In this document: positions 1 through 34,271 of the stretch, piece by piece
Layout: the number at the start of each line of letters is the position of its first letter
How positions within the stretch are numbered: position 1 is the stretch's first letter
From: Gemmatimonadaceae bacterium
GTDB taxonomy: Bacteria > Gemmatimonadota > Gemmatimonadetes > Gemmatimonadales > Gemmatimonadaceae
Assembly: GCA_025930755.1 (NCBI GenBank)
Contig: JAICOJ010000025.1
Location: 1 to 34,271 of the forward strand
Direction: 5' to 3'
Length of the DNA: 34,271 nt
Translations under genes and position numbers: made by a program
The notes under the pieces: generated by a model
Databases searched by the model: none
Told to the model about the DNA's origin: nothing
The model's input: only the letters and a program-made list of their open reading frames with translations

Positions 1-36
1 CGCCCCTGACCCCTGACTCCTGACTCCTGACCCCTA
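1..36. repeat. Heptad repeat array, one visible arm (TGACTCC family)
   Basis: The first bases are a degenerate tandem array with period 7 (units CTGACCC and CTGACTC). It ends in CCCCTAG, where CTA is the complement of the TAG stop of the BON-domain gene. The partner arm, if any, lies outside the window. The array is almost identical to the right arm of the element at 21042-21167 and uses the same heptamer as the element at 34019-34164, so it belongs to one family. It directly abuts the 3' end of a minus-strand gene. Function unknown; a transcript-end structure is possible. Confidence 0.75.
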
Positions 37-1284: not shown

Positions 1285-1383
1285 AACTGCGAACTGCGAA
1301 CTGCGAACTCCGACCAATGCAGTCCTGCTCGCAGTTCGCAGTTCGCAGTTCGCAGCCCGCAGTCCGCAGTTCGCAGTTCGCAG
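1285..1383. repeat. Heptad inverted-repeat element (CGAACTG / CAGTTCG)
   Basis: The left arm is tandem CGAACTG (1285-1310, about 3.5 units). The right arm is tandem CGCAGTT (1330-1383, about 7.7 units, two of them variant, CGCAGCC and CGCAGTC). The arms are reverse complements, so the element can fold into a long stem with a short loop near 1313-1329. It lies between the GpmI stop codon and the start of the barrel gene, both on the minus strand, and so would form in the 3' untranslated region of gpmI or the leader of the next gene. The right arm has about twice as many units as the left, which suggests repeat-number change. Confidence 0.85.
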
Positions 1384-10324: not shown

Positions 10325-10450
10325 ACGGCAAAGACGTCAGAATACAGAACTCAGAATTCAGAGAAACCGACGGGGAGCCAGTCTTACGGCTCCCCGTGGT
10401 CGTTTTCTGAATTCTGAATTCTGTATTCCGACCTCTGACGTCTTTGCCGT
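10325..10450. repeat. Heptad inverted-repeat element (CAGAATT / AATTCTG)
   Basis: The left arm starts four bases after the guaB stop: ACGGCAAAGACGTCAG, then heptads CAGAATA, CAGAACT, CAGAATT, CAGAGAA (10338-10365). The right arm holds TTTTCTG, AATTCTG, AATTCTG, TATTCCG, ACCTCTG (10403-10437) and closes with the complement ACGTCTTTGCCGT. The outer ends pair exactly (ACGGCAAAGACGT with ACGTCTTTGCCGT). In the middle sits a 10-bp GC hairpin (10370-10379 with 10388-10397). The whole region can fold as one long interrupted stem. It separates guaB from the permease gene. Confidence 0.85.
10370..10406 (+). terminator. Intrinsic-terminator-like hairpin after guaB
   Basis: A perfect 10-bp stem (ACGGGGAGCC with GGCTCCCCGT), an 8-base loop (AGTCTTAC) and then GGTCGTTTT. 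It sits at the centre of the heptad inverted repeat and is placed to end guaB transcription before the permease gene. The T-run is short and separated from the stem by five bases. Confidence 0.6.
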
Positions 10451-21041: not shown

Positions 21042-21167
21042 GAGGGGTCAGGAGTCAGGAGTCAGGGATCAGGGGGTTCCAGGTTCGAAGGCGTGGGGGC
21101 GTGCGAGCAGTGCTCTCACCCACACCCTGGCACCCCCTGAATCCTGACTCCTGACTCCTGACCCCTA
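21042..21167. repeat. Heptad inverted-repeat element (GTCAGGA / TCCTGAC) in the sigma gene leader
   Basis: The left arm contains GTCAGGA, GTCAGGA, GTCAGGG, ATCAGGG (21047-21074). The right arm is its reverse complement, ending CCCCTAG. Over 34 bases the arms differ at two positions, and weaker pairing continues inward (AGGGGGTTCCAGG against CCTGGCACCCCCT, one mismatch), so about 43 bases per side can pair. The spacer from about 21085 to 21124 is GC-rich. Unlike most of the other elements it lies upstream of genes on both sides: directly before the ATG of the ECF sigma gene (minus) and about 87 bases before ubiE (plus). Confidence 0.88.
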
Positions 21168-26830: not shown

Positions 26831-26836
26831 GGGCGG

Positions 26837-26970
26837 CGATTGCGGATTGCTGATTGCTGATTGCGTGTTGGGACCCGCACGTGCGCAAAGGGCCCCGACG
26901 TCAAGTCGGAGCCCCGGTCGCGCACCGTTCCTCGGCTGGTCTGGTCCGCAGTCAGCAATCCGCAATCGCG
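26837..26970. repeat. Heptad inverted-repeat element (GATTGCT / AGCAATC)
   Basis: The left arm is GATTGCG, GATTGCT, GATTGCT, GATTGCG (26838-26865) and ends TGTTGGGACC. The right arm begins GGTCC and has CAGTCAGCAATCCGCAATCGCG (26943-26970 in all). The reverse complement of the right arm matches the left over CGATTGCGGATTGCTGA with small differences, and the left arm has more units. The centre holds a GC hairpin (26890-26914). It lies between two convergent genes, the metallophosphoesterase and the small unknown gene, and could act as a two-way terminator. Confidence 0.85.
26890..26914. terminator. Hairpin between convergent genes, inside the heptad element
   Basis: A 10-bp stem with one mismatch (GGGCCCCGAC at 26890-26899 with GTCGGAGCCC at 26905-26914) and a 5-base loop. 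No T-run follows on either strand. Its central position in the heptad inverted repeat between two convergent genes suggests transcription termination for both, possibly helped by the longer heptad stem. Confidence 0.45.
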
Positions 26971-31588: not shown

Positions 31589-31664
31589 GAACGAGGAACG
31601 AGGAAGGAGGAAGTGGGGAACACAGCCTTTGGAAAGGCGCTTCCTCGTTCCTCGTTCCTCATTC
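31589..31664. repeat. Heptad inverted-repeat element (GAACGAG / CTCGTTC)
   Basis: The left arm is GAACGAG, GAACGAG, GAAGGAG, GAAGTGG (31589-31616). The right arm is CTCGTTC, CTCGTTC, CTCATTC (31644-31664), preceded by GCGCTTC. Between them is a small hairpin (GCCTTT at 31625-31630 with AAAGGC at 31633-31638). The last heptad CTCATTC contains the complement of the TGA stop of the trans-sulfuration gene, so the array begins within the final codons (GAA TGA G). It ends 20 bases before the M48 gene start, between two minus-strand genes. Confidence 0.87.
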
Positions 31665-32893: not shown

Positions 32894-34015
32894 ATGCGCG
32901 ATCACCGGTACGACCTGGGCGTGTCGTCGGCGATCGCGGGCGCCAATGGCGACGGACGACACGAGCGCCGCTGCCTGGTGGTCGACGACGAGCCGCGTCT
33001 GCGGCAGGCGCTCGTGCGGCTGATGCAGCTCGATGGCTTCACCTGCTTCGAGTGCGGATCGGGCGTCGAGGCGCTCGAGATTCTGGCGCGCGAGCCGGTG
33101 ATCCTCATCCTGTCCGATCTGCGGATGCCGAAGATGGACGGGGCGATGCTGCTGCGCGAAGTGCGCGAGCGATATCCGGACATCGCGGTCATCATGATCA
33201 CCGCCGTCGCGGAGGTCGAGGTCGCGGTCGAATGCCTCGGCCGAGGCGCGATGGACTACATCGGCAAGCCGTTCGTGCTCGAGGAGGTTCGCGCGCGCGT
33301 GAAACAGGCGCTGGAGCGGCGGCGGCTGGTGCTCGAGAATCGGCAGTACCACCACTCGCTCGAGGAGCGCGTGCGCGTGCAGTCGCGACGGCTCGAGGAG
33401 CTCTTCATCGCCAGCATCCAGTCGCTCGCCGATGCGCTGGAGCTCAAGGACTCGTACACGCGTGGTCACTCGGTGCGCGTGAGTCACGTCTCGGGACTCA
33501 TTGCCCGCGAGCTCGGGCTCGATGGGGACACGGTGCGCCAGGTGGAGCTTGGCGGTCACCTGCACGACATCGGAAAGATCGGCGTGCGTGAAGACGTGCT
33601 GAACAAGCCGGGCAAGCTGACGGCCGACGAATACGCGCACATCATGACGCACCCGGTGTTGGGCTGGCGGATTCTCTTGCCGCTGCTGAGCGACTCGCCG
33701 GTCGCGCTCAACGTGGTGCGATCGCACCACGAGCGCATCGATGGCCGCGGCGTGCCGGATGGCCTCAGCGGGGACGGGATCGCTCGTGAGGCGCGCATCG
33801 CGTGCGTCGCCGATGCCTTCGATGCGATGATGAGCGGCCGACCCTATCGGACGGCGCAGCTGACCCTCGACGCGGCGCTCGAGGAGCTGCGCCGCCACGC
33901 CGGTACGCAGTTCGACCCCCAGGTCGTCGATGCCCTGGTCGCCGTCGTGCGCCGCGGCGACATCGCGGCGCCGGTGAGGCATTCGATCGCCGAGCTGGCG
34001 GTGGGGAAAGGCTGA
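32894..34015 (+). CDS. Response regulator with REC and HD-GYP domains
   Basis: A 373-residue protein. The ATG giving M-R-D-H-R-Y-D-L has GGGGAGG seven bases upstream; an ATG 20 codons earlier lacks one. The receiver domain (about residues 25-145) has Asp31/Asp32, the phosphorylation site Asp75 in LILSDLRMPKMDG, and Lys125. A coiled linker (145-175) leads to the HD-GYP domain (175-365), with GHLHDIGKIGV (His224, Asp225, Lys228) and the second motif HHERIDGRGVPDGL. HD-GYP proteins hydrolyse cyclic di-GMP. Here the Y of the GYP signature is Val287, a variant that may alter activity. No partner histidine kinase is adjacent. The 3' end is repeated in inverted orientation beyond 34168. Confidence 0.94.
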   Translation: MRDHRYDLGVSSAIAGANGDGRHERRCLVVDDEPRLRQALVRLMQLDGFTCFECGSGVEALEILAREPVILILSDLRMPKMDGAMLLREVRERYPDIAVIMITAVAEVEVAVECLGRGAMDYIGKPFVLEEVRARVKQALERRRLVLENRQYHHSLEERVRVQSRRLEELFIASIQSLADALELKDSYTRGHSVRVSHVSGLIARELGLDGDTVRQVELGGHLHDIGKIGVREDVLNKPGKLTADEYAHIMTHPVLGWRILLPLLSDSPVALNVVRSHHERIDGRGVPDGLSGDGIAREARIACVADAFDAMMSGRPYRTAQLTLDAALEELRRHAGTQFDPQVVDALVAVVRRGDIAAPVRHSIAELAVGKG

Positions 34016-34061
34016 GGAGTCAGGGGTCAGGAGTCAGGAGTCAGGGGTCAGGGAAGGAAAA

Positions 34062-34121
34062 GGCGGCGCGGCTTCGCCGCAGCCGCCTCATCCGATGAGC
34101 GCGGCAGCTTCGCTGCCGCGC
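34062..34121. terminator. Two strong hairpins at the centre of the inverted repeat
   Basis: Hairpin one spans 34062-34087 (GGCGGC closing with GCCGCC, inner GCGGC with GCCGC, loop TTC, one bulged A). Hairpin two is a perfect 10-bp stem (GCGCGGCAGC at 34099-34108 with GCTGCCGCGC at 34112-34121, loop TTC). Between them is TCATCCGATGA. Placed between two convergent genes, they could stop transcription from both sides, although neither is followed by a T-run. Confidence 0.5.
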
Positions 34122-34167
34122 CTTTCCTTCCCTGACCCCTGACTCCTGACTCCTGACCCCTGACTCC

Positions 34168-34271
34168 TCAGCCTTTCCCGACCGCCAGCTCGGCGATCGA
34201 ATGCCTCACCGGCGCCGCGATGTCGCCGCGGCGCACGACGGCGACCAGGGCATCGACGACCTGCGGGTCGA
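34168..34271 (-). CDS. C-terminal end of a second HD-GYP gene (partial, runs off the window)
   Basis: Read on the minus strand, this is the last 34 codons of a protein ending VRRGDIAAPVRHSIAELAVG, then K-G and TGA. The amino-acid sequence is the same as the C-terminus of the HD-GYP regulator that ends at 34015, with two synonymous codon differences (CCG for CCC, GTC for GTG). The gene therefore points toward the first copy, tail to tail. The start and most of the gene lie outside the window. It is a partial copy or a full paralogue; from this window they cannot be separated. Confidence 0.7.
   Translation of the reverse strand, partial: DPQVVDALVAVVRRGDIAAPVRHSIAELAVGKG

Follow-up and report, generated by a model that had tools for sequence, protein, structure and literature searches.

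REP, BIME and REPIN elements often lie in 3' regions. Other described repeats are built from short tandem units. In Xanthomonas, GGGAATC heptads form 70 and 75 intergenic facing pairs per genome (Rehm et al. 2015, PMC4692102). They lie on average 28 nt from the upstream ORF, with figures of 16% for convergent and 7-8% for divergent gaps; their one G-rich unit was read as a G-quadruplex, the arrays are often single, and most are kept between species with the same unit (83%) (PMC4692102). Paired tandem repeats of Geobacter metallireducens, in tens of copies, with class 1 octads and class 3 heptads (MTYCTGA), were described as regulator binding sites (PMC2700814). In Nostoc, P6b of the tRNA-Leu intron holds degenerate heptads, variable in number, that base-pair to form an RNA hairpin (PMC3488679). 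The TAACTGA arrays of Beggiatoaceae and cyanobacteria are direct and mostly upstream of start codons, with one inverted case only (PMC4679880). The anatomy considered below, facing pairs of heptad arrays, is already published; the kind is known and little studied. An initial annotation of the DNA analysed here had known of no inverted heptad class, and the Xanthomonas, Geobacter and Nostoc examples correct it. A literature search on palindromic tandem repeats in Gemmatimonas found none.

The window, meaning the whole stretch of DNA analysed (34,271 nucleotides), is one entire contig (C92:1-34271) of a 4.27 Mb assembly in 275 contigs, here called G000. The closest named relatives of its IMP dehydrogenase come from Gemmatimonadaceae/Gemmatimonadetes MAGs. 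At all seven loci where the initial annotation reported period-7 arrays such arrays are present, and six of the seven, the complete ones, are inverted pairs. Since the window is a whole contig, the locus at 1-36 is cut by the contig end and shows one arm. The features are listed below; G001 is a species of the same genus, about 82% identical to G000 over the window.

3..36, unstranded: family A (GTCAGGA), second arm only, truncated at the contig start and abutting the stop codon of a minus-strand gene that ends at 34.
1285..1383, unstranded: family B (GCGAACT) inverted pair, with a short arm (1285-1313) and a longer arm (1329-1383) that holds an internal 28-base duplication.
10325..10450, unstranded: family D (CAGAATT) element with outer arms ACGGCAAAGACGTC, heptad arms and a central hairpin.
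21043..21166, unstranded: family A element with a short core; G001 has the same unit and nearly the same arms.
26836..26969, unstranded: family E (GATTGCG/GATTGCT) element whose central hairpin reads GGGCCCCGAC..GTCGGAGCCCC, with convergent genes on either side.
31589..31664, unstranded: family C (GGAACGA) element between two minus-strand genes.
34010..34168, unstranded: family A element with a long three-hairpin core, its second arm inside a fold-back.
34169..34271, unstranded: assembly fold-back, an inverted copy of the coding flank 33912-34009.

In each element, which is non-coding, two arrays of a short unit face each other across a variable core; the unit usually has 7 bases. The one at 10325 starts 5 nt past the stop codon of the IMP dehydrogenase gene (10320), ahead of an amino-acid permease gene; its central hairpin, GGGGAGCC..GGCTCCCC, has a T-rich tail that lies inside the element. 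The element at 1285..1383 adjoins the 3' end of a phosphoglycerate mutase gene (1395-2939, minus), and the orthologous site in G001 is empty. The slot at 26836..26969 holds the same family in G001, and the element at 31589..31664, which adjoins the 3' end of a Cys/Met PLP enzyme gene, has a related unit there. RNA folding of the six window elements gave strong z values (-6.6 to -14.5), and the predicted RNA form of each is one very long hairpin. No Rfam family matches in the window at the gathering threshold.

The initial annotation had given each locus its own heptamer. There are instead five unit families in the window, all dispersed through the genome: A (GTCAGGA/GTCAGGG), B (GCGAACT), C (GGAACGA), D (CAGAATT) and E (GATTGCG). 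CTGACTC and GTCAGGA are the same unit read on opposite strands, so the loci at 1-36, 21043 and 34019 all belong to family A. The polarity of a family is fixed, GTCAGGA for example always standing in the first arm and its complement in the second.

The last of these loci needs a word of caution. The contig end (33912-34271) is a near-perfect inverted repeat of 149 bases (99%) that includes the coding flank. Because G001 runs into different sequence at the counterpart position, the downstream flank of the 34019 copy (34169-34271) is an assembly artefact, a fold-back at the palindrome; the second arm of the element may be real. Many further G000 contigs end in or beside family A elements. The elements explain contig breaks and one fold-back in this assembly.

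A chance origin of the arrays can be ruled out: 404 kb of G000 contain 72 strong period-7 arrays and order-2 resampled sequence contains none, while each other period (not a multiple of 7) yields at most 9 arrays in the same 404 kb. Over 696 kb sampled, neighbouring period-7 pairs are inverted in 67 of 67 cases and never in the same direction, which excludes arrays of the cyanobacterial one-direction type; the density figures rest on these 696 kb, part of which was picked near element hits. The initial annotation is thus supported in its view that inverted heptad arrays with central hairpins form a single shared class, commoner than chance allows. In all, G000 carries hundreds of these long hairpin-forming repeats, each with two facing arrays of a 7-letter word, just after genes; the exact three-copy unit is found 164 times for GTCAGGA and 163 times for GCGAACT.

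Contrary to the initial annotation, the period is not always 7. Inverted arrays of 9-base (GAGGTGCTC, AAGGGATCG, ACCCTGAGG), 8-base and 11-base units occur in G000 or its relatives. In G017, an inverted pair of 11-base units (AGGACTGAAGA; L149:6678-6762) is laid out like the heptad elements, and a pair of 8-base units (GCTGCGTG; L149:12131-12191) follows IMPDH and is itself followed by TTTTTTT. At L174:3740-3860, arrays of 9-base AGCGCTTTC/AAGGCGCTG, a unit that contains the self-complementary AGCGCT, fill a gene-end slot whose counterpart in G001 holds a GATTGCG-type palindrome.

Family A has two types of core, a long one with two GC hairpins around CTCATCTGATGAG and a short one that starts with GGGGGTGTCAGGG. 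B and C cores are mostly locus-specific; in some B elements the core forms an entire hairpin resembling a terminator, AAAACCCTCGGGA...TCCCGAGGGTTTT. One long core type is flanked by GTCAGGA arms in G000 and by GGCCAGG or 9-base GGGATCGAA arms in G001, so that arms and cores look like exchangeable modules.

By the approximate calls of a purpose-written codon-usage gene caller, heptad palindromes are present in 21 of 63 convergent gaps (33%), 40 of 210 tandem gaps and 5 of 74 divergent gaps (7%); put differently, 61 of the 273 gaps with a gene 3' end are occupied against 5 of the 74 divergent ones (p=0.0015). The median distance from element start to stop codon is 5 nt. Of 82 gene 3' ends, 70 are between -6 and +25 nt from an element, compared with 14 of 40 downstream 5' ends. 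In family A the element often touches the stop codon or even overlaps it. The suggestion that the elements stand at transcript 3' ends, made from the window alone, is thereby strongly supported, both by the distance and by the depletion of divergent gaps.

One feature of an intrinsic terminator, a stable hairpin shortly past the stop codon, is present. The other was looked for as TTTT within 20 nt past the element, and was seen in 0 of 42 family A, 2 of 14 family B and 1 of 13 family C orientations. Since the main family has no U-tracts, the elements are not canonical terminators, and a Rho-independent terminator for all families is rejected. They may also tell how transcript ends in a high-GC phylum are marked or protected when U-tracts are missing.

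For comparison with G001 we used 85 orthologous non-divergent gaps. Of the 34 slots occupied by a heptad palindrome in G000, 26 hold a long stem in G001, against 10 of the 51 others (p=3e-7); if slots with any long stem in G000 are taken, the figures are 34/43 against 2/42. Twenty gaps have heptads in both species, the unit differing by 0, 1, 2 or 3 bases in 6, 6, 6 and 2 cases, respectively. The unit of the sister species is often different yet related, the alteration running through several repeats and both arms. Examples are GCGAACT in G000 against GATTGCG in G001 (L022:18924 and L159:10918) and GTCAGGA against GGGGCCA (L166:10174 and L160:9265). As the mean unit distance is 1.20 at orthologous slots against 2.10 when slots are paired at random (0 of 10000 permutations), slots and unit types are related by descent or by replacement in kind, with the unit often rewritten.

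Long cores at orthologous slots are no more alike than those at random slots; there is no signal of their descent, in six pairs only. In the orthologous pair at L022:4711 the core has opposite orientations, which would fit inversion of the spacer and would also fit independent insertion. A side observation concerns L170:4470-4594, where G000 has a full family A element and its counterpart in G001 is only CTAGGGGTCACCCCTAG, which is either what a deletion left behind or a seed from which an element could grow. Another concerns L161:9925-10124, which is 99.75-100% identical between the two genomes, against about 82-85% elsewhere, possibly because of recent transfer or a mis-binned contig.

How are the two arms of a locus kept alike? 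The initial annotation took the arms to be reverse complements maintained by a shared mechanism such as arm copying, and proposed that orthologous loci be examined for arm co-variation. Arm copying is partly supported. For the unit, the arms are coupled: within a family, the two arms of a locus match each other better than they match arms elsewhere (in four families the observed value was reached in 3, 0, 42 and 56 of 5000 permutations; the 34019 locus was excluded), and in the sister species both arms usually have the same changed unit, an outcome expected of template switching (PMC8604942, PMC8794818). For copy number they are not. Arm lengths show no significant correlation between arms, a few elements have unlike arms, and at L161:9925, where the flanks are 99.75% identical in the two assemblies, one arm has one unit more and the other two fewer, so that unit number changes independently per arm. 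Strict arm copying that includes length is therefore rejected. The arms are coupled in unit but not in length. This pattern fits slippage within each arm, combined with occasional copying from arm to arm, with selection for pairing, or with both. Where repeats are inverted, template switching is known to make the arms alike and to turn the spacer round (PMC8604942); it has also been proposed to create and maintain RNA hairpins (PMC8794818).

We lean towards the reading that the elements are dispersed 3'-end hairpin repeats maintained by three processes: slippage, template switching and the transfer of copies from one locus to another. The transcript would form a 3'-terminal hairpin after the stop codon, and this hairpin would end or protect the mRNA, for one direction of transcription or for both, in the manner of REP elements or intrinsic terminators. 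Slippage would alter unit number arm by arm; template switching between the facing arms, together with selection for pairing, would bring one unit into both arms; and copying between loci, by gene conversion or transposition, would spread units and cores through the genome.

A bolder suggestion can be made, which we offer tentatively, as possible rather than probable: gene-end hairpins throughout the genome would be under concerted evolution, the slots being inherited while hairpin-directed template switching and inter-locus copying replace the unit in both arms. If this is correct, the same slots are filled from different unit alphabets even in two species of a single genus. Template switching is one proposed answer to the question of how long stems keep both sides matched as their sequence changes (PMC8794818). 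Here a single genus provides hundreds of natural replicates of a retained slot with a new unit in both arms, and comparison of close strains could separate arm copying, selection for pairing and inter-locus copying.

Another potential explanation, which we find somewhat doubtful, is that these are REPIN- or MITE-like mobile elements whose arms serve as recognition ends for a transposase acting in trans, with gene 3' ends as safe or preferred landing sites. Copies are indeed dispersed, with near-identical arms and variable centres; some orthologous slots contain an element in just one of the two species, or hold different families in the two. However, the readable empty sites have no clear target-site duplication, against a background identity of about 82%, and slot retention within the genus is high. 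Y1 transposases (Y1_Tnp) match once in G000 and not at all in G001 and G003, which carry elements (all are incomplete drafts), and roughly 3 kb around the G000 gene contain no array. RAYT-driven mobility is thus not supported as the general explanation.

Turning from the genus to the phylum, the exact three-copy B unit is absent from G001 (0 matches), while the B array finds dozens of matches in G003, which belongs to a different genus. Among 297 other genomes of the phylum, only 4 contain the three-copy A unit, none of them more than 3 times (G001 was outside this draw). Such uneven counts indicate a patchy and fast-changing distribution. With the reversed pattern GGACTGA x3, meant as a control, G291 gives 48 matches, a hint that this genome, from a different family of the phylum, is rich in heptads as well. 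At the IMPDH slot G000, G001, G003, G006 and G017 have different hairpins, a striking but single example of differing hairpins in one place. In other genera, long stems are present at 4 of 33 orthologous slots and at 17 of 146 other gene ends, no excess; a need for a hairpin at these particular genes across genera is unsupported, and the case for function rests on position and on retention within the genus.

This lack of cross-genus retention suits a further possibility, that the arrays are selfish or neutral simple sequence, grown from gene-end palindromes by slippage and hairpin-templated synthesis and merely tolerated since convergent and tandem gaps hold no promoter. Unit number varies freely, as would then be expected, and 20 further genomes of the phylum, sampled for at most 20 kb each, yielded no paired arrays. 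Tight placement just past stop codons and the strong slot retention within the genus speak against it, and we regard it as unlikely. That the elements are paired binding sites of a global DNA-binding regulator, as the Geobacter authors proposed (PMC2700814), we think very improbable: the layout of tandem units on opposite strands is shared, but there are at least five unrelated units in one genome, the unit changes from one sister species to the other, and the elements prefer gene 3' ends to divergent promoter regions.

Set against known systems, the elements of G000 resemble the Xanthomonas GGGAATC repeats in being tandem facing heptads in intergenic regions, near the 3' end of the upstream gene and depleted from divergent gaps. 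They are unlike them in having several units, in being nearly always paired, and in that the unit is often swapped between species; a G-rich, quadruplex-capable unit like GGGAATC is absent among the main units GTCAGGA, GCGAACT, GGAACGA, CAGAATT and GATTGCG. With the Geobacter repeats, as far as they are set out in the part of PMC2700814 considered here, they share short tandem units on opposite strands, a variable spacer and several classes per genome, and MTYCTGA resembles family D; that part holds no analysis of 3'-end position or unit turnover. The P6b heptads of Nostoc are a single intron locus, whereas the G000 elements are dispersed at gene ends. Like the TAACTGA arrays of Beggiatoaceae and cyanobacteria, the G000 heptads are abundant and intergenic. 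Like REP, BIME and REPIN elements, they are dispersed extragenic palindromes with conserved inverted arms and a variable centre; the arms of REP, BIME and REPIN are, in contrast, not tandem arrays of a 7-base unit, and the elements show no general association with a RAYT gene in the incomplete drafts of G000, G001 and G003. What is new here is the presence of several unit families in one genome with modular arms and cores, and the coordinated turnover of the unit in both arms at gene-end slots that are retained.
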